Shown: one piece after another, positions 18,727 to 55,098 of the stretch | Layout of the letters: each line of letters starts with the position of its first letter | How positions within the stretch are numbered: the first letter of the stretch is position 1 | Assembly (NCBI GenBank): GCA_000814665.1 | Contig: JWIH01000016.1 | Coordinates: forward strand, 186,001 to 250,000 | Source of the DNA: Pseudoalteromonas flavipulchra NCIMB 2033 = ATCC BAA-314 | Lineage (GTDB): Bacteria; Pseudomonadota; Gammaproteobacteria; Enterobacterales; Alteromonadaceae | Direction: 5' to 3' | DNA length: 64,000 bases | Notes under the pieces: model-generated | What the model saw: only the letters and a program-made list of their open reading frames with translations | The model's database searches: none | What the model was told of the DNA's origin: nothing | Program-made: the position numbers and the translations under genes

Positions 18727-19975
18727 TGCCGAGTGGCGGCTTGGGGCCTACTGTACGCTGTTAACCATTAGCTGTACGGTTTTACTGACTTTACTGCTTC
18801 TGCAATTACAGCTTGAGGTAACGTGGGTAGCTGCCGTATCGGTGAGTGTATTGGGGTTATTGGGTGGGTTACAAAAAATACTGTTGTCTCACCTTAAACG
18901 TATTGCCATGCGTGCTAATTGGCAGCTAGAAGCGATTGCACAAAGTGACTTTACGCAAACCATTAAGCCACATTATACGGCGGGCGTGGTGGCTGAATTT
19001 GAACAGCGCTTGCTGGCCTTAAGTGCACAGCTGCACAGTCAAAAGCGCCGCTATCATAGTCAGCAGTTTATCATTTATCAGCTAATAGACAGCCTTAATA
19101 CGCCAATTATGATGTTTGACGAAAAACTCAAACTTGCCTATGCCAATGGTGCATTTGAGTCGCTTTATCATCGCCCTTGGTTAGAGTGTAAGGGAATAAG
19201 CGCGGCTCAGTTTGGGCTGGTGCAACAAGATAATCACTGGCATTTTGCAGATACAGCGCAGCAATCTCGGTGGCAACTACAAAGTAGTGAATTCTTTCAA
19301 GAGGGTAAGCAGTTTTCTTTACTTGTCGCACTCGATATTACTAAGGCATTACGTAAAAAGGAGCTGGCTGCTTGGCAACACCTAATCCGAGTAATAAGTC
19401 ATGAGATCCACAACAGTTTGACGCCCGTAAGCTCCCTAGCGCAAACCTTATTAGCAAGAGCTAAGGACGAAAAAGAGCAGCATGCGCTAAGCGTAATAGG
19501 TCAGCGTTGCCAGCATTTACAACAATTTGTGAGCCAATACGCCAAAGTTACGCAAACCCCAAGGCTAGATCGGGAGTCAGTCTCCATCATGCTGTTACTG
19601 TCTTCTGTTGCTGCGTTATTTGAGGATACCGACATCCAAGTAAATTGCACTGTGAATACGCTCAATCTCGATAAAGCCTTAATTGAGCAAGTGTTGATTA
19701 ACTTAGTTAAAAATGCCATTGAGGCCAGTGGTGAAAATGCCAAGTTGACGCTACATGCTTATTATCAGCAGCAACAAGCGGTGATTGATGTGCAAGACAA
19801 TGGCCCAGGCTTTGCCAACCTAGATAACATGCTTATTCCTTTCTATTCCACCAAAGAAGGTGGGCAGGGAATAGGTTTAACCTTTAGCCGCACCATTGTA
19901 GAGTTACACGATGGACAACTGAGTTGTCACAACACAGACTCGGGAGGATTGATAAAAATCACTTTACCTTGTTGA
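18704..19975 (+). CDS. Membrane PAS sensor histidine kinase, partner of the NtrC-type regulator
   Basis: This 423-residue kinase overlaps the regulator gene by 23 bases. Two adjacent N-terminal helices (about residues 13-35 and 38-62) leave almost no periplasmic part, so it probably senses from within the membrane or cytosol. A PAS-like domain covers about 122-215. The phosphorylated histidine is H233 in VISHEIHNSLTP, and the ATP lid carries DNGPGF and GGQGIGLTFSR. The architecture is NtrY-like. The frame extends upstream to 18563, but ATG 18704 with GGA upstream places the start correctly before the first helix. Confidence 0.88.
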   Translation: MVLKHLASAEWRLGAYCTLLTISCTVLLTLLLLQLQLEVTWVAAVSVSVLGLLGGLQKILLSHLKRIAMRANWQLEAIAQSDFTQTIKPHYTAGVVAEFEQRLLALSAQLHSQKRRYHSQQFIIYQLIDSLNTPIMMFDEKLKLAYANGAFESLYHRPWLECKGISAAQFGLVQQDNHWHFADTAQQSRWQLQSSEFFQEGKQFSLLVALDITKALRKKELAAWQHLIRVISHEIHNSLTPVSSLAQTLLARAKDEKEQHALSVIGQRCQHLQQFVSQYAKVTQTPRLDRESVSIMLLLSSVAALFEDTDIQVNCTVNTLNLDKALIEQVLINLVKNAIEASGENAKLTLHAYYQQQQAVIDVQDNGPGFANLDNMLIPFYSTKEGGQGIGLTFSRTIVELHDGQLSCHNTDSGGLIKITLPC

Positions 19976-19999
19976 TAATAATTATCATTAGCATATAAT
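19972..19999 (+). promoter_or_regulatory. Perfect 7-1-7 Fur box over a sigma-70-like promoter
   Basis: TGATAATAATTATCA at 19973-19987 is a perfect 7-1-7 palindrome of the Fur consensus. It overlaps a -35-like TTGATA (19972-19977). A TATAAT -10 lies at 19994-19999 with a 16-bp spacer. The ATG of the 78-residue membrane protein follows 34 bases after the -10. Iron-Fur repression of that gene is the direct prediction. The box also overlaps the stop codon of the kinase gene. Confidence 0.85.
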
Positions 20000-20422: not shown

Positions 20423-23236
20423 ATGCGAGCGCTACTGATAATTTTTGTTGCTTTTACGAGCTTTGGTTTACAGGCTAAGTGGCAAACCATTAAAACTGAA
20501 AACTTCAATGTGCATTATCCTCAGGCGCTTCAGCAATGGGCGTATTCTGCAGCAAATGAGCTGGAGGTGGTGCGAGATAAGGTGCTGGCACAACAAGGTA
20601 GAGCCTTGAGTGAACGTGCTGATGTGATTATTTACGACCCAGAAAATACGGCCAATGGCTTTGCATTACCCAGCACAGATAAACCAATGATGGCACTGCA
20701 AGCGACGCCGCCTCAAGCTGATTCCGTCATCGCAAATAACACCAGTTGGCAGCAGTTGCTCATTTTGCACGAATATATTCATCTCGTTCATCTATCACAG
20801 CCTAGCCGTAATCAATGGCGACAACATCTCAGAGATTGGCACGATATTACCGACTTGCTCGATGCGGTATTACCGCGTTGGGTCAGCGAAGGCTATGCGA
20901 CCTTGCTGGAGTCTAGATTAACGGGACGAGGACGTTTATACGATAATTACAGTGAGAGCATTGTGCGCTATTACGCGCAGCAAGGCGCATTACCGACCTA
21001 TAGCGCTTTAGATAATGGCGACAAGTCTTACCTTTCCAACTCCATGGCATACTTAGTAGGCGTACGTTTTCTAGCATGGCTTGAGGATAATTATGGCGCA
21101 CAGACGTTAGATGCCGTGTGGACAAGAGTGCAGGCGGTGGAATCACGCAGTTTTGAAACCGCATTTAGTGGTGCTTTTGGAGCGCCAGCCAGCCAGTTAT
21201 ATCGTCGCTTTATTGTTGAATATAGCTATCAGGCTATGCAGCAAGAGCTGGCCTTGGTTCCGACACAGAGTGAGCTTTGGCAGCGGTTCGCATATGCTGC
21301 TCGAGATATTGCATTCTCTCCAGATGGCAGTCAGTTTTTGGTGGTAGAGCAAAATCGTAAACGCCAAGTCACACTCAATATCTACGAAAACAAAGAAAAT
21401 GTAGAAGCCATTGAGCAATTTAATAAGCGCAACGAAGCGATATTAAATGCCGATCCTAAAGATATTGTGGATATCGCACCCGAAGTCTTTCCAAAAAAGC
21501 GACTTGCGCAGCTTGATGCTCACAATTTTGCTGGTATCTATTACCCCCAGTGGCTGAATGACAGCCATATTTATTTCGTTGCAAAAACGCCAGCTGCAGA
21601 CGATACCTTTATCAATGATTTGTTTGTCTGGAAAGTTGGTACTGGAAAGCCTAAGCAACTAACCGAAGGAGCGGGTATTCGTCGCTTTAGTATTGTTGAT
21701 GCGAATACCATTATTGCGGAGGTGTCTCGTTTGGGTTACTCACAGTTAGTGACCATAGAGCTGGACTCAGGCAAGCAAACGCCGATCACCACAAGTAAGC
21801 TTGGGGATGTCCATGACTTTCCTGTGCTCTCTAATAAAAAGACGATATTGGCCTATGTGCATGTTACTCCTAACAAGCGCTGGCAACTTGTTGTTAAAGA
21901 TCTTAGCCACGATACAACCGAAATTGTTTATTTACCCAAGTCACATCAATACCTTTCGGGGTTAACTTGGTCTCATGATGATGACAAGTTGTACTTTATT
22001 TCCGGAGTCGCAGGCCACTTAGCGGTGATGCGTTATGATGCGGCGAGTAAAATACTTGAAACCTTACCTGTGAGTGCTAAACCGCTTGAGCAAATTATTA
22101 CCCATTCACAGCAGTTACTGGTGAGCTATGCGACCCCTGAGGGGGTCAAGGTTAACAAAATAGTGTCTCCGGCTTGGCGCACCGTAAGCGTGTTGGAGCA
22201 AGTGGATGAGGCTGAGCTAAAAGAGCTGCATCCTCATCAATTACCTGCGGCTAAGATAGATCAAACCGCGCTGCCCAGTTCTGATTATTCTGTGTTCGAA
22301 CAGTCTCATTCTGTCGCCTTATCAGGCGCATTAAATAGCGCCTCTTTTGATAGTTTGGGCGTGGCATTAAAAGGGCAGGATGTGCTGCGCCAACTTGCTT
22401 GGCAGCTTGGAGTCGAGAAAAGTATCAATAATGGCGCGTTGATGGGTGCATTCGCCCAATTCGAATATCGTCATGAAAACTGGAAAACGACGTTTGATGC
22501 TGGATATCAAGAGCTAGAAGCGGATAAGCAGTCTCGCTCGCTACAAGCAAATACCTCGAATGAAAGCAGCTTTAAGCAATTTGCCTTGTCATCTAGCTAT
22601 CGCTTTGGTGAAGCATTGAATTACCTCGCTCCCGAATTGGGGGTTATTCGTGTGCAACATGGTGAAAAAGCATGGAGCGGCGGGCGTTACGGCTTTAACG
22701 GTCGTGCAATGTGGGATACACAGCAGCATGGTGTAGCACTGCAAGTCTCTGCAGCTCAGTGGCTAGGTGAATTAGATGGTTTTGATTATCAGCTGAGTTT
22801 GTTCGCTAAAGCATGGCAAATTCCATTCTATGCATCGGTCGATAGCCGCTACAGCAGCGAATTGCCTTTATCTTTGGGTGGTGGACCACTTACCAGCACT
22901 AGTATTAGTAACAGTTTACACGCTGTCAGCGAACCTATGTTGCCGCATCTATTTGCAACGGGAAGCCGCTATTTAGGCTATGAATTTGCAACGTCATGGC
23001 AGCAGGGCAAACCTAAGTTATTTTATAAGCAGCATCAGTTAGATGGAGAAGTTATTGGGCAAAATTACGGTATTAAGATGCGCTTACCTTTGTCTCGAGT
23101 GATATTAGACAAGGCCGCTGATTTTGCTCCTGCAGGATTAACCGATTTACAGTTTAATGCTGGAGTGGGTCGCATTGAGGGGCGTAACATGGCTAATGAA
23201 AACCGTGTCTGGTTTAGTGTTTGGTATGAGTTGTAG
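20423..23236 (+). CDS. Large exported HExxH metallopeptidase-like protein with propeller and barrel-like parts
   Basis: This 937-residue protein has a signal peptide (residues 1-18, cut after LQA). The peptidase-like region has HEYIH at 116-120 and a third-ligand-type motif WVSEGYAT with E156, as in gluzincins. Residues about 290-590 contain WD40/TolB-like repeats (for example DIAFSPDGSQFLVVEQN and GLTWSHDDDKLYFISG). The last 300 residues alternate hydrophobic and polar residues and end in WFSVWYEL, typical of outer-membrane beta barrels. It may be a surface peptidase tethered by its own barrel. AGGAAAGG precedes the ATG. The substrate is unknown. Confidence 0.75.
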   Translation: MRALLIIFVAFTSFGLQAKWQTIKTENFNVHYPQALQQWAYSAANELEVVRDKVLAQQGRALSERADVIIYDPENTANGFALPSTDKPMMALQATPPQADSVIANNTSWQQLLILHEYIHLVHLSQPSRNQWRQHLRDWHDITDLLDAVLPRWVSEGYATLLESRLTGRGRLYDNYSESIVRYYAQQGALPTYSALDNGDKSYLSNSMAYLVGVRFLAWLEDNYGAQTLDAVWTRVQAVESRSFETAFSGAFGAPASQLYRRFIVEYSYQAMQQELALVPTQSELWQRFAYAARDIAFSPDGSQFLVVEQNRKRQVTLNIYENKENVEAIEQFNKRNEAILNADPKDIVDIAPEVFPKKRLAQLDAHNFAGIYYPQWLNDSHIYFVAKTPAADDTFINDLFVWKVGTGKPKQLTEGAGIRRFSIVDANTIIAEVSRLGYSQLVTIELDSGKQTPITTSKLGDVHDFPVLSNKKTILAYVHVTPNKRWQLVVKDLSHDTTEIVYLPKSHQYLSGLTWSHDDDKLYFISGVAGHLAVMRYDAASKILETLPVSAKPLEQIITHSQQLLVSYATPEGVKVNKIVSPAWRTVSVLEQVDEAELKELHPHQLPAAKIDQTALPSSDYSVFEQSHSVALSGALNSASFDSLGVALKGQDVLRQLAWQLGVEKSINNGALMGAFAQFEYRHENWKTTFDAGYQELEADKQSRSLQANTSNESSFKQFALSSSYRFGEALNYLAPELGVIRVQHGEKAWSGGRYGFNGRAMWDTQQHGVALQVSAAQWLGELDGFDYQLSLFAKAWQIPFYASVDSRYSSELPLSLGGGPLTSTSISNSLHAVSEPMLPHLFATGSRYLGYEFATSWQQGKPKLFYKQHQLDGEVIGQNYGIKMRLPLSRVILDKAADFAPAGLTDLQFNAGVGRIEGRNMANENRVWFSVWYEL

Positions 23237-52055: not shown

Positions 52056-53461
52056 GCGGCAAATTTGGTTTGATTCCGGCCTTGTTTGGCACGATAGAGC
52101 GCGGCATCGGCGCGCTTTATAAAACCATCTTCTGATTCATCAATATGGTATTGTGCAACGCCAATACTGACTGTCACTTTGACCTCACATTCCGCTTGCT
52201 CTAGAGCAACATGGATCTTCTCAGCAATCGCAATTCCCTGCTCTAACGTCGCTTTGGGTAGCAATACCATAAACTCTTCGCCTCCCCAGCGGCACAGCAA
52301 ACCGTTGTTTTCTATCTCGCGTTTACATACGTTCGAGAAGCATTGCAGCACTCTGTCGCCTACCACATGGCCATGCTGATCGTTCACTTGTTTAAAGTGG
52401 TCAATGTCCATCATCAACATCACTACTGGGGTTGATTGGGTACGCGCTTTCGCTAAATGGTGCTGAAGCTGTGGCTCAAAGGCTTGGCGATTAAAGGTAT
52501 CGGTGAGTTTGTCGTACTTCGCCATTTTTTCTAAGCGTTTCTGATAGTGATTAAACGTCAATTGCGCCACGGCCAATATTAATAGGGTGACGAGGCTCCC
52601 TACCCATAAATTGGTTGTGAGTATGTCGTTTATTCCACTGGATTTATCTATTGTTTGCTCAACAATTAAATACCAGCCTATAGAGTCCAAATAGCGCGAA
52701 TGGACAAACTCGGCATTGTCGTCGGTTTCCAACCGAAATTGATATTCGGATTGATTGAGCAGCGCCGTTGCTTGGGTTGGAAAACGATCATGAATATTGG
52801 TGCCAGATAGGGTCTGATCGTTAAAAAATAAGAGCCTGCCTTTGTGGTCAATAAAGTACAGTTTGCGTGCGTAGCTGGCTTCGTATTGTTCGATTAAATT
52901 GTGTAAATCAGCCAATAAGATACCAACCCCAACAACGCCAATTACATCGTTGTTTTGTTTTATTTTATGATTGACGTAAACAATGGCTTCATTGTTATCT
53001 CTTGGGTCTATATCAACATTGAGCGCATAGTCAGCATCGCTATGCAGGCTTTCTCGGTACCAATCGTTTTGTTTGGCGCGAATGTCTAACTGCTGGGTGT
53101 TACCATCAAAGTGGTAATAAGTGAGGCTCTTGTCGTCCACTAAAAAGCTCGTTTTTGCGTGATGTAATGCTCGAGTATCTTCTAAGTAGGTGAAAATAAG
53201 CGTAGGGTCTTGCTGTGAAGACGTTAGCCAACGTTTAATAAAGACGTTATTTGCCATTTGCTGAGAAACAATAATTGGAGCTTGAAGCCGTTTTTGTATG
53301 TCTAAATCAATCAGATGGCTGGTGAGTGGCAGAGCATCATCGCTCACTCCTTTATACAACGACTGTTTAGCATGCTCGATACTTATCCAGCTGGTGAAAA
53401 TAAATCCTACCAGCAGCAGCAGGCTTAACAACATGTTATAACGGTAGCGTCGAGCGTTCAT
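52052..53461 (-). CDS. Membrane diguanylate cyclase with periplasmic dCache sensor
   Basis: This 469-residue protein has helix 1 at about residues 9-27, a periplasmic dCache-like domain to about residue 280 with VYVNHKIKQNNDVIGVVGVG, helix 2 near 285-305, and a GGDEF domain with active site RWGGEEF. The inhibitory RxxD is replaced by ENNG-type sequence, so product feedback is probably lost. The open frame continues 71 codons upstream, but those codons run into the neighbouring small-RNA unit and lack a signal for initiation. ATG 53461 directly precedes helix 1. Confidence 0.88.
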   Translation of the reverse strand: MNARRYRYNMLLSLLLLVGFIFTSWISIEHAKQSLYKGVSDDALPLTSHLIDLDIQKRLQAPIIVSQQMANNVFIKRWLTSSQQDPTLIFTYLEDTRALHHAKTSFLVDDKSLTYYHFDGNTQQLDIRAKQNDWYRESLHSDADYALNVDIDPRDNNEAIVYVNHKIKQNNDVIGVVGVGILLADLHNLIEQYEASYARKLYFIDHKGRLLFFNDQTLSGTNIHDRFPTQATALLNQSEYQFRLETDDNAEFVHSRYLDSIGWYLIVEQTIDKSSGINDILTTNLWVGSLVTLLILAVAQLTFNHYQKRLEKMAKYDKLTDTFNRQAFEPQLQHHLAKARTQSTPVVMLMMDIDHFKQVNDQHGHVVGDRVLQCFSNVCKREIENNGLLCRWGGEEFMVLLPKATLEQGIAIAEKIHVALEQAECEVKVTVSIGVAQYHIDESEDGFIKRADAALYRAKQGRNQTKFAA

Positions 53462-53563
53462 ATTATTGTTATTTTTGGAAAAATAGAATGATACGGATTC
53501 TAGTAAAAGAAAACGATTACACGACATTACAGCTGAACAAACGCTGATAGAAAATGTAGGCAT

Positions 53564-53589
53564 AAAAAAAGCCCTGAGCAGGGCTTTTT
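53564..53589 (-). terminator. Intrinsic terminator of sRNA copy 1
   Basis: On the minus strand AAAAAGCCCTGCTCAGGGC followed by seven Ts forms a stem of GCCCTG/CAGGGC extended by A-T pairs. The same hairpin recurs at 54008 and 54402. Confidence 0.85.
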
Positions 53590-53727
53590 GATTCATATCT
53601 ACCGTCACCGATATGAGCAATGTAGCAAGTAAAAAGTGGTTGCCAGTGATACACATCAAGGGGCGTTGTAGCACATCACCGACAACACGATTCAGGGTCG
53701 AATCAGCAAGAGCATGTCCTCTTGTTG
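53564..53727 (-). ncRNA. Candidate Fur-regulated RyhB-like small RNA, copy 1
   Basis: The predicted transcript of about 164 nt starts near 53727, about 7 bases after a GATAAT -10, and ends in an intrinsic terminator. A 6-bp hairpin (CAAGAG / CTCTTG) opens it. The 3' half holds the core TTGCTACATTGCTCATATC, which is shared by all three copies. A TCATATC/GATATGA stem follows, and then the terminator. ACATTGCTCATAT resembles the pairing core of enterobacterial RyhB (ACATTGCTCACAT). RyhB-type RNAs repress iron-using proteins when iron is low. Length and start are inferred. Confidence 0.75.
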
Positions 53728-53785
53728 ATATTGATTATCAATTAGATTAGCCGTTAGGTCAATACCTTTTTGAAAATAATTCTCA
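53726..53785 (-). promoter_or_regulatory. Fur-controlled promoter of sRNA copy 1
   Basis: On the minus strand, -35 TTGACC (53762-53757), a 17-bp spacer and -10 GATAAT (53739-53734) form a sigma-70 promoter. Two 7-1-7 Fur boxes flank it: TGAGAATTATTTTCA (53785-53771) just upstream of the -35, and TGATAATCAATATCA (53740-53726) over the -10. Each has one departure from perfect symmetry. Confidence 0.8.
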
Positions 53786-53832
53786 TTAATATTTGTACAG
53801 CTGTTTTTCGGTAAGTGCTGAAAATAGATATA

Positions 53833-53994
53833 ATACCAGTTGTATTAAGTAAATGATCTATCTTGAAGCAGGGAAATAGCTTTAGTAGCAAGGCAAAAAT
53901 TTTGCTATTTAGTTGTTCTAAATGAGAAATTTTTAACGAAGCTAATATGCTATTTCACCCTTCAAATTGATTAGAGAATTAATTCAATTGGTAT
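53833..53994. mobile_element. MITE-like palindromic element between sRNA copies 1 and 2
   Basis: A 162-bp element begins ATACCAGTTGTATTAAG and ends in the related inverse TTAATTCAATTGGTAT. The imperfect inverted similarity extends about 45 bases inward on each side, to the GAAATAGC-type segment. It codes for nothing. It lies in a spacer that is otherwise the same as that between copies 2 and 3, so it looks like a later insertion, probably at a TA target. No matching transposase is in the window. Confidence 0.65.
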
Positions 53995-54007
53995 AAATTT
54001 TGGGCAT

Positions 54008-54033
54008 AAAAAAAGCCCTGAGCAGGGCTTTTT
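54008..54033 (-). terminator. Intrinsic terminator of sRNA copy 2
   Basis: This is the same GCCCTG/CAGGGC hairpin as in copies 1 and 3, followed on the minus strand by seven Ts. Confidence 0.85.
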
Positions 54034-54284
54034 ACGTTCATATCTACCGTCACCGATATGAGCAATGTAGCAAGTAAATTGTGAGAATAAACTTAGTCAG
54101 GTTTAGGGGCGACTGAATTAAGCTCATTCAAGCCATTAACGTTGGCCAGCCGTGTTTCAGGGTCGAGAAACAAACTAGAGTACTAATGCCAATCTCAAGG
54201 TAGCGAGTACATCAGGTAGATAGGGCTTTACAACTATCAACCTTACTAACTGAGTTGGCGAAACAACACGTTGCCGTCTTGTTG
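54008..54284 (-). ncRNA. Candidate Fur-regulated RyhB-like small RNA, copy 2
   Basis: The predicted transcript of about 277 nt is the longest copy. The 5' ATCAACAAGACG, a middle TCGACCCTGAAACACGGCTGG and the 3' core TTGCTACATTGCTCATATC with its stem and terminator are shared with the other copies. Extra sequence lies between the 5' end and the middle block. The conserved GAGCAATG complement lies at 54060-54067. Differences in the unshared parts may give copy-specific targets. Expression has to be shown by experiment. Confidence 0.75.
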
Positions 54285-54342
54285 ATAGTGATTATCAGTT
54301 AGATCTAACAATGAGTCAATACTTTTTTGAAAATAATTCTCA
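54283..54342 (-). promoter_or_regulatory. Fur-controlled promoter of sRNA copy 2
   Basis: On the minus strand, TTGACT (54319-54314), a 17-bp spacer and GATAAT (54296-54291) form the promoter. The Fur boxes are TGAGAATTATTTTCA (54342-54328) and TGATAATCACTATCA (54297-54283). The layout is identical to that of copy 1. Confidence 0.82.
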
Positions 54343-54401
54343 TTAATATTCTTGTGGCTGTTTTTCTAGGAAGTACCGAAGTAAAAATAAATTTTGGGCA
54401 T

Positions 54402-54427
54402 AAAAAAAGCCCTGAGCAGGGCTTTTT
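54402..54427 (-). terminator. Intrinsic terminator of sRNA copy 3
   Basis: This is the same GCCCTG/CAGGGC hairpin as in copies 1 and 2, followed on the minus strand by seven Ts. Confidence 0.85.
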
Positions 54428-54606
54428 GATTTCATATCTACCGTCACCGATATGAGCAATGTAGCAAGTAAAAAGTGGAGTTAGCGTCTAAATACGAGGA
54501 GCAATGCAAGTGCTTGCTAACGTCCTTGGTAGTTATGGATACCAGCCTTGTTTCGGGTCAAGAAACTATTGTGATAACAAGTTGAGCCGTCACTCTCGTC
54601 TTGTTG
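54402..54606 (-). ncRNA. Candidate Fur-regulated RyhB-like small RNA, copy 3
   Basis: The predicted transcript of about 205 nt shares the 5' start ATCAACAAGACG, the middle TTGACCCGAAACAAGGCTGG and the 3' core with copy 2. It also contains a second seed-like CTTGCATTGCTCCTCG (complement GAGCAATG at 54499-54506), upstream of the common core at 54454-54461. It would therefore carry two CATTGCTC segments, as E. coli RyhB carries a repeated CATTGCT. Its promoter has a perfect -35 TTGACA. Confidence 0.75.
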
Positions 54607-54665
54607 ATAGTGATTATCAATTAGATTTGCATGGCTGTCAACGCTCTTTTTGAAAATAATTCTTA
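54605..54665 (-). promoter_or_regulatory. Fur-controlled promoter of sRNA copy 3
   Basis: On the minus strand, TTGACA (54641-54636), a 17-bp spacer and GATAAT (54618-54613) form the promoter. The Fur boxes are TAAGAATTATTTTCA (54665-54651, slightly weaker than in the other copies) and TGATAATCACTATCA (54619-54605). Confidence 0.82.
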
Positions 54666-55098
54666 TTTAGATCTAAGTGGTTGGAATTACACCAAATTTA
54701 AATTTATTGAGTGTATTGTTTTATTAATGTGATGGTTTTTGGTGTGTTGTATGTCTTATTTCTGCTTATTCTAGGGGGCAAAGTATTATTCTATATTGAG
54801 CTTTGCAGGCTCACCGTTTCCAGAGCTTCAGAGAAAAGCTAGGTTAATTTATCATCCACATCTTAGATATTTTGATTAACGCAGCAGTCATACTTTCGCT
54901 TAACTCGTTATTTATTTCCACACTACTTTGGGTTTTGTGCATATTGCTCATGATTTTTATGCACAAAACGCGCTTTACTCAACTTAATCAACTTATTTCC
55001 GCAATCTATGGTTAATTGAGGGTTAACAATAAGCTCGTACTTGATAGCAGGTTGTAGTCGCTAGTCACAATACGTTTAAGACAAATGAGTACAGAGCA
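54666..55098 (+). other. Upstream region of the tripartite carboxylate transport operon
   Basis: This 430-base gap lies between the sRNA copy 3 promoter and the porin gene. It is A/T rich and has no coding frame with a start signal. It holds a perfect 12-bp inverted repeat at 54932-54969 and presumably the operon promoter downstream of it. Confidence 0.5.
54932..54969. promoter_or_regulatory. Long inverted repeat, candidate response-regulator operator
   Basis: GTTTTGTGCATA and TATGCACAAAAC are perfect 12-bp inverted arms separated by 14 bp. The centre lies about 150 bp before the first gene of the operon. The spacing is more like two regulator half-sites than a terminator, and there is no upstream gene on this strand to terminate. 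The CitB-type regulator at 61020 is the likely binder. Confidence 0.55.

Follow-up and report, generated by a model that had tools for sequence, protein, structure and literature searches.

Tandem candidate small RNAs with Fur-like boxes form an apparently Pseudoalteromonas-specific family with a predicted iron-sparing role

The window (the whole 64-kb stretch of Pseudoalteromonas DNA that was analyzed) contains, at positions 53564–54665, three units arranged in tandem on the minus strand, each composed of a predicted promoter with two Fur-like boxes, a common core, and a terminator-like hairpin (table 1). The initial annotation of this DNA had described the locus in these terms, and we confirm both the three tandem units and, from our reading of the sequence, the same terminator-like hairpin at the end of each. 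The transcript lengths given in the table assume a start about 7 nt past the −10 element and are, therefore, predictions.

Table 1. Coordinates of predicted features of the three-unit array (positions in the window).
Feature	Position	Strand	Remarks
Unit 1 sRNA	54402..54606	-	~205 nt predicted; basis: promoter 54641-54613, core, terminator
Unit 1 Fur-like box over -10	54605..54619		1 mismatch
Unit 1 upstream Fur-like box	54651..54665		3 mismatches
Unit 1 second RyhB-like seed	54495..54513	-	GCACUUGCAUUGCUCCUCG; in unit 1 of the window's group, at the place of the CGCCCC loop of other units
Unit 1 invariant 40-nt core	54432..54471	-	UUACUUGC (predicted sdhC pairing), ACAUUGCUCAUAUC (RyhB-like), hairpin
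Unit 1 rho-independent terminator stem	54404..54427	-	From sequence; terminator scan lists it on the plus strand only
Unit 2 sRNA	54008..54284	-	~277 nt predicted, longest 5' domain; promoter 54319-54291
Unit 2 Fur-like box over -10	54283..54297		1 mismatch
Unit 2 upstream Fur-like box	54328..54342		2 mismatches
Unit 2 invariant core	54038..54077	-	From sequence identity
Unit 2 terminator stem	54010..54033	-	From sequence
Unit 3 sRNA	53564..53727	-	~164 nt predicted; promoter 53762-53734
Unit 3 Fur-like box over -10	53726..53740		1 mismatch
Unit 3 upstream Fur-like box	53771..53785		2 mismatches
Unit 3 invariant core	53593..53632	-	From sequence identity
Unit 3 terminator stem	53566..53589	-	From sequence

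The promoters of the three units combine TTGACA, TTGACT, and TTGACC with a 17-bp spacer and GATAAT (scores of 11, 10, and 10 of 12), which bears out the −35, spacer, and −10 originally annotated. Promoter-like sites as such do not exceed chance in the 64-kb stretch (5 found vs. 7.3 expected from shuffling), and the weight therefore rests on the repeated identical layout. Matches to TGATAATNATTATCA with three or fewer mismatches, on the other hand, number 18 in the window versus 4.19 expected, and six of them fall on the three array promoters, in agreement with the two Fur boxes per unit claimed for this locus. The box over the −10 has the same placement in all three units, and the other box of each unit starts 10, 9, and 9 positions, respectively, before the −35. 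Elsewhere in the window, at 19973–19993, a perfect TGATAATAATTATCA and two overlapping weaker matches lie at the end of a histidine-kinase-like ORF, 430 bp ahead of an ORF at 20423.

All three units carry an identical TTACTTGCTACATTGCTCATATCGGTGACGGTAGATATGA and end in GCCCTGCTCAGGGC followed by seven T. Within the core, the segment that matches sodB is GUGACGGUAG, which consists of the hairpin loop and the base that opens the 3' arm. A terminator scan listed none of the three stems on the minus strand and one of them (54404–54427) on the plus strand. The only Hfq-related feature visible in the units is the U-rich 3' end, and a search for an Hfq motif found none in the fetched DNA, which makes up a minor part of the genome. 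A GGDEF gene starts about 100 nt downstream of unit 3. An ORF with a GTG start at 53674 that would fuse unit 3 to this gene was rejected, because a terminator-like hairpin lies in between and the ATG of the gene lies past the hairpin.

The 83-base end of unit 3, used as a BLAST query, has matches in 107 of 108 Pseudoalteromonas genomes, and the exact core pattern, searched over 84,980 species genomes, returned 99 stretches, every one of them titled Pseudoalteromonas. Within the family, a covariance model built on the core and terminator matched 16 of 295 genomes, each of them a Pseudoalteromonas; within the order it matched five of 295, of which two were Pseudoalteromonas and three were marginal (L132–L134). 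The marginal matches were rejected, as on reading the DNA they proved to be terminators without the full core; L132 has a partial core likeness, TTACTTGCTGCATTGCT. Because the covariance searches used strict filters and scored 16 candidates per genome, distant relatives may have been missed. Judged from these searches, this candidate small RNA family looks peculiar to the genus Pseudoalteromonas. In one draft genome of about 180 contigs (G096) no unit was detected, although the sodB site described below is present.

Among 41 loci chosen by hand (the window and 40 fetched loci), arrays contain four units in 4 loci, three in 20, two in 9, and one in 8, with predicted unit lengths from 160 to 391 nt. 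The initial annotation had regarded a tandem triplet with different 5' and middle regions as unusual; a triplet as such is not exceptional, as the fetched arrays of the genus have one to four units and a RyhB triplet occurs in another family (see below). Our unit list comprises 101 of 102 units, one having been dropped because its core starts with CTACTTGC rather than TTACTTGC. Five of the single-unit loci (L083, L085, L087, L089, and L095) are divergent extra copies, which retain the core pattern and a GACC motif and have another 5' domain without CGCCCC; by eye, four of the five lie near an aldehyde-dehydrogenase-like protein, and L089 and L095 are without the full sodB seed. Gene names near the arrays were taken from the window proteins, namely a GGDEF protein and a ribosome-binding GTPase whose gene we take to be ylqF. 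For 15 main arrays the downstream gene listed is ylqF in 10, GGDEF in 4, and neither in 1 (L097), and ylqF lies behind a GGDEF gene in the window and in L062. In 8 of these 15 arrays the first large gene listed downstream is a convergent ylqF, without an intervening GGDEF gene.

One candidate target is sodB, for which we used 30 classic sodB genes, one per genome. Codons 5–7 are CTA CCG TCA in all 30 Pseudoalteromonas genomes; CTACCGTCA is present in 30 of the 30 genes and CTACCGTCAC in 29, the thirtieth keeping the last pair as G-U. The sodB CTACCGTCAC is the exact complement of the core segment GTGACGGTAG, which is made up of nine bases of the loop plus the base that opens the 3' arm. This full seed is found in 93 of 101 units, including all three in the window, and at least one unit has it in 39 of 41 loci; it is incomplete in the other 8 units, and two loci have no unit with a full seed. 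Of 79 conserved sodB codons with four to six synonyms, only five never vary, and three of these are codons 5, 6, and 7. Elsewhere in the family, 29 SOD loci outside Pseudoalteromonas, one of them of the other SOD type, all lack CTACCGTCA. The mean best helix between sodB and the core is −17.6 kcal/mol versus −7.0 kcal/mol for shuffled cores, and none of 150 shuffled-core decoys does as well by ungapped helix or by duplex energy; with sodB from other genera, the core is equaled by 51 of 150 decoys ungapped and by 29 of 150 in duplex energy. At synonymous sites sodB visibly bears what appears to be an imprint of coevolution with its putative regulator. A second SOD of the genus was rejected as a target, since 38 of 150 decoys match it as well by ungapped helix, and we treat it as a nontarget even though only 7 of 150 do so by duplex energy. 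An initial scan covered 368 gene starts; by ungapped helix it placed sodB 4th and sdhC 70th, and by duplex energy 68th and 18th, respectively.

The sdhC leader carries TGGGCAAGTAAC in all 30 Pseudoalteromonas genomes, directly ahead of a conserved GTG that we take as the sdhC start by likeness to known SdhC, and GRGCAA lies just upstream of it in 26 of the 30 leaders. The two elements are complementary to UUACUUGC and AUUGCUCAU of the core, at the opposite end from the sodB seed. Within Pseudoalteromonas alone, none of 150 decoys pairs with sdhC as well by duplex energy and 8 of 150 do so by longest ungapped helix. Several bases of the core take part in neither the sodB nor the sdhC pairing.

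A wider scan with a simple script covered 1,120 gene starts in the window and 60 genome pieces (~23% of the genome). Its strongest ungapped matches were a dicarboxylate symporter, endonuclease III, a catalase-peroxidase, an imelysin-family protein, and an ABC ATPase; the top four of the 1,120 include Nth (Fe-S), KatG (haem), and the imelysin-family protein, and a second catalase-peroxidase and a TtcA-like PP-loop protein (identified by eye) ranked 14th and 15th. The top match scored −21.4 and the top matches of 20 shuffled-core decoys ranged from −16.5 to −23.0. As the energies are only modestly beyond those of the decoys, we regard this list as a lead. Among orthologues, nth leaders have complements that change but are often present, with 2 of 150 decoys as good ungapped and 15 of 150 by duplex energy, and for katG the corresponding figures are 0 and 4 of 150; this comparison is biased because both genes were picked for their high rank in this genome. 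By far the strongest nth sites belong to four sequences from the window's group that are part of the set. Sites seen in nth and katG of this genome shift between clades and are not conserved in position across the genus, and both genes are leads only as candidate targets. An earlier scan of the genome for complements of a 17-mer revealed no clear targets and was superseded by the multiseed analysis, because contiguous near-perfect matching to a single seed was the wrong test. Separately from target prediction, we observed that several genomes (G042:C28, G049:C3, G065:C1, G105:C3, and others) carry extra copies of the last 64–87 nth codons at a distance of ~1–33 kb from the complete gene, as if elements insert at the 3' end of nth. 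In the window's genome, contigs C2 and C17 each carry a full nth, and the two are identical.

We consider it very likely that the units form a Pseudoalteromonas-specific paralogous family of Fur-repressed, trans-acting RNAs that runs an iron-sparing response. Such a function had been suggested for the array from knowledge of similar RNAs, and the conserved predicted pairing with sodB and sdhC supports it. Under iron-replete conditions, Fur-Fe(II) would block transcription by covering the −10 as well as the sequence ahead of the −35; when iron is scarce, the three units would be transcribed as separate structured RNAs ending at their own terminators. The invariant 3' core would then pair, probably with Hfq, with mRNAs of dispensable iron enzymes: through its 5' end (UUACUUGC and AUUGCUCAU) with the sdhC leader, next to the start codon, and through the hairpin loop (GUGACGGUAG) with sodB codons 5–8. 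This pairing would block translation and destabilize the mRNAs, and the position-specific 5' hairpin domains with their C-rich loops probably tune stability, Hfq binding, or the choice of extra targets. Transcription, Fur binding, Hfq use, and target repression are steps that we infer; what the DNA itself shows is how promoters and boxes are laid out, the terminators, the conservation and covariation, the complementarity, and the frozen sodB codons.

Among the known systems closest to this family is RyhB (RF00057) of enterics, Vibrio, and Shewanella. The window has no Rfam match at gathering, and neither RyhB nor PrrF (presumably RF00444) is among the 35 Rfam matches obtained at E values up to 10 for the region 53400–54950, so that neither covariance model matches the array. 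Weak matches to STnc420, MicC, and other models were rejected as being far below gathering scores with alignments largely on the terminator. With strict filters and an E value of 0.1, RF00057 has no match in the array's own genome; at the same E value it matches 77 of 148 genomes of the order (32 over cut-off), and its only match in another genus of the family has an E value of 0.092. The initial annotation had likened the core to that of RyhB, and this stands for a common 10-mer: the core shares 10 nt (ACATTGCTCA) of the RyhB GACATTGCTCACATTGC and then continues with TATC instead of the second CATTGC. The sodB seed is the hairpin loop and not ACATTGCTCA.

True descent from RyhB, with divergence past recognition by the Rfam model as in Shewanella, is a serious possibility to which we give somewhat less than even weight. 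RyhB resembles the array in its Fur-type promoter and boxes, ACATTGCTCA in the core, a terminator with a T run, sodB and sdhC as predicted targets, and tandem copies in some taxa, and the Shewanella RyhB likewise escaped both BLAST and the then-current Rfam model according to the part of that report available (PMC2964681). Tandem RyhB copies are found in other families of the order: one locus (L166, G452:C16) has three nearly identical copies 378 bp apart, which makes a triplet less unusual than had been claimed, and L167–L169 have two each. By eye, these copies lie near polA-like genes (upstream of one in L166), as do the Vibrio-like and Shewanella-like RyhB loci that we read, whereas the Pseudoalteromonas array adjoins ylqF. 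The copies of L166–L169, from a Shewanella-like family, are nearly identical from box to terminator, in contrast to the invariant core and divergent 5' domains of the array. Unlike RyhB, the array units fail the covariance model, are genus specific, and possess a large covarying 5' domain with C-rich loops; their near-invariant core of 40 nt includes an additional hairpin, and it is the loop of this hairpin that forms the predicted sodB seed. Given the failed model, the lack of polA synteny, and the different sodB seed, our best reading is that the family would work like RyhB but is not established as RyhB.

Similar arrangements are known elsewhere. The available part of the Shewanella report describes two tandem RyhB copies with a Fur box upstream in Shewanella amazonensis (PMC2964681), alike in tandem arrangement and Fur box and unlike in sequence family and locus. 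PrrF1 and PrrF2 of Pseudomonas aeruginosa, according to the part covered of a review of sibling sRNAs, are tandem, Fur-controlled, and iron-sparing, but are two copies rather than one to four and differ from our units in the long position-specific 5' domains of the latter; the review's table contains the PrrF1/PrrF2 tandem and, in that part, no iron-sparing triplet (PMC4211561). IsrR of Staphylococcus aureus, as far as the portion available describes it, is under Fur control, spares iron, and has C-rich regions; its predicted targets include sdhC, and katA mRNA is one of its targets (PMC11257911). It belongs to another phylum. We found no description of the Pseudoalteromonas array RNA in the literature searched, which covered main texts and few subscription journals, nor in the available parts of PMC12096840, PMC11882849, PMC5826389, and PMC8891985.

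RNA structure was analyzed in an alignment (A3) of 29 of the 101 units. It was drawn from 96 main-type units, reduced to 75 by length and 34 by redundancy, after which five units with divergent 5' domains, including window unit 1, were removed by hand; window units 2 and 3 were lost by length, and the window's own units are therefore outside the covariation count. The counted structure has 50 pairs and is one member's fold to which three small 5' hairpins were added by hand; the RNAalifold consensus contains the long 5' hairpin, the core hairpin, and the terminator, and the three small hairpins are absent from it. In this structure 89.5% of cells are paired, and 143 cells are changed on both sides versus 64.1 ± 7.0 in shuffles (none of 500 as high) and 49 or fewer in controls with the structure slid. 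Most of this signal comes from the long 5' hairpin, in which 16 of 18 pairs have changes on both sides. The 5' domain covaries as an RNA structure across the family. Because the core hairpin is invariant across the 29 aligned units, covariation neither supports nor opposes it. Of the C-rich loop motifs, GACCC is found in 84 and CGCCCC in 82 of the 96 main-type units. In RNAs of the IsrR type, C-rich loops pair with the ribosome-binding sites on mRNAs for iron proteins; when the loops of the array family were compared with gene starts, iron proteins were not evidently enriched, by eye, among the best matches.

In a sample of nine genomes of the window's group, 5' domains at the same array position are 93.7% identical between genomes (108 comparisons, minimum 79.4), versus a mean of 45.4% between positions within a genome (27 comparisons, maximum 53.5). 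The core (41 nt compared) is 100% identical both between these genomes and between paralogues, a figure partly conditioned by the filter for a TTACTTGC start. The different 5' regions noted at the outset are thus position-conserved domains that differ between paralogues, and from these identities and the covariation of the family's 5' domains we conclude that they are maintained and distinct. That the three units are pure dosage copies of one regulator, with 5' domains as neutral filler, is a reading suggested by the identical cores of paralogues and by the variation from one to four units per fetched array, but we think it unlikely in light of the same identity contrast and covariation; the conserved position-specific domains favor some splitting of target sets over pure dosage, as far as conservation can indicate. 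Repeated regulatory leaders or a mobile repeat, as the tandem repetition and the GGDEF gene close behind unit 3 might suggest, are very improbable given the terminator-like hairpin at every unit's end, the convergent ylqF as nearest gene with no GGDEF gene between in 8 of 15 main arrays, and the invariant core, covariation, and coevolution with sodB.

If the units are indeed trans-acting, iron-sparing RNAs, a large marine genus gains a likely iron-sparing RNA that is invisible to current RNA family models. The arrays also amount to a natural experiment, having one to four copies with a nearly fixed core, 5' domains that diverge by position, and an apparently coevolved sodB. Why bacteria maintain sibling small RNAs could be tested directly in them by deleting single units. 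The invariant core has three putative seeds, for sdhC at one end, for sodB in the hairpin loop, and a RyhB-like one in the middle. A possible, though rather doubtful, extension is a composite RNA with labor divided within the array, in which position-specific 5' domains add targets per copy to the three-seed core and the second seed of unit 1, GCACUUGCAUUGCUCC, may add control of respiratory complexes. In the window's species group GCACUUGCAUUGCUCC replaces the CGCCCC loop in unit 1, and GCACUUGCAUUGCUCCUCG is present in unit 1 of all nine genomes of that group tested; if the proposal is true, respiratory control would be exerted by unit 1 alone. The second seed (window 54495–54513) has 13-nt matches at the starts of nqrA (first of 1,120) and cytochrome oxidase subunit IV (third), located at L337:5124–6467 and L330:17266–17625, a strength that by itself is not beyond chance, as 5 of 20 shuffled seeds had a top match as strong. 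Finally, between the array and a porin gene, at 54932–54969, lies a 12-bp inverted repeat with 14-bp spacing, whose minus strand reads ATGAGCAAT, the complement of ATTGCTCAT in the core.
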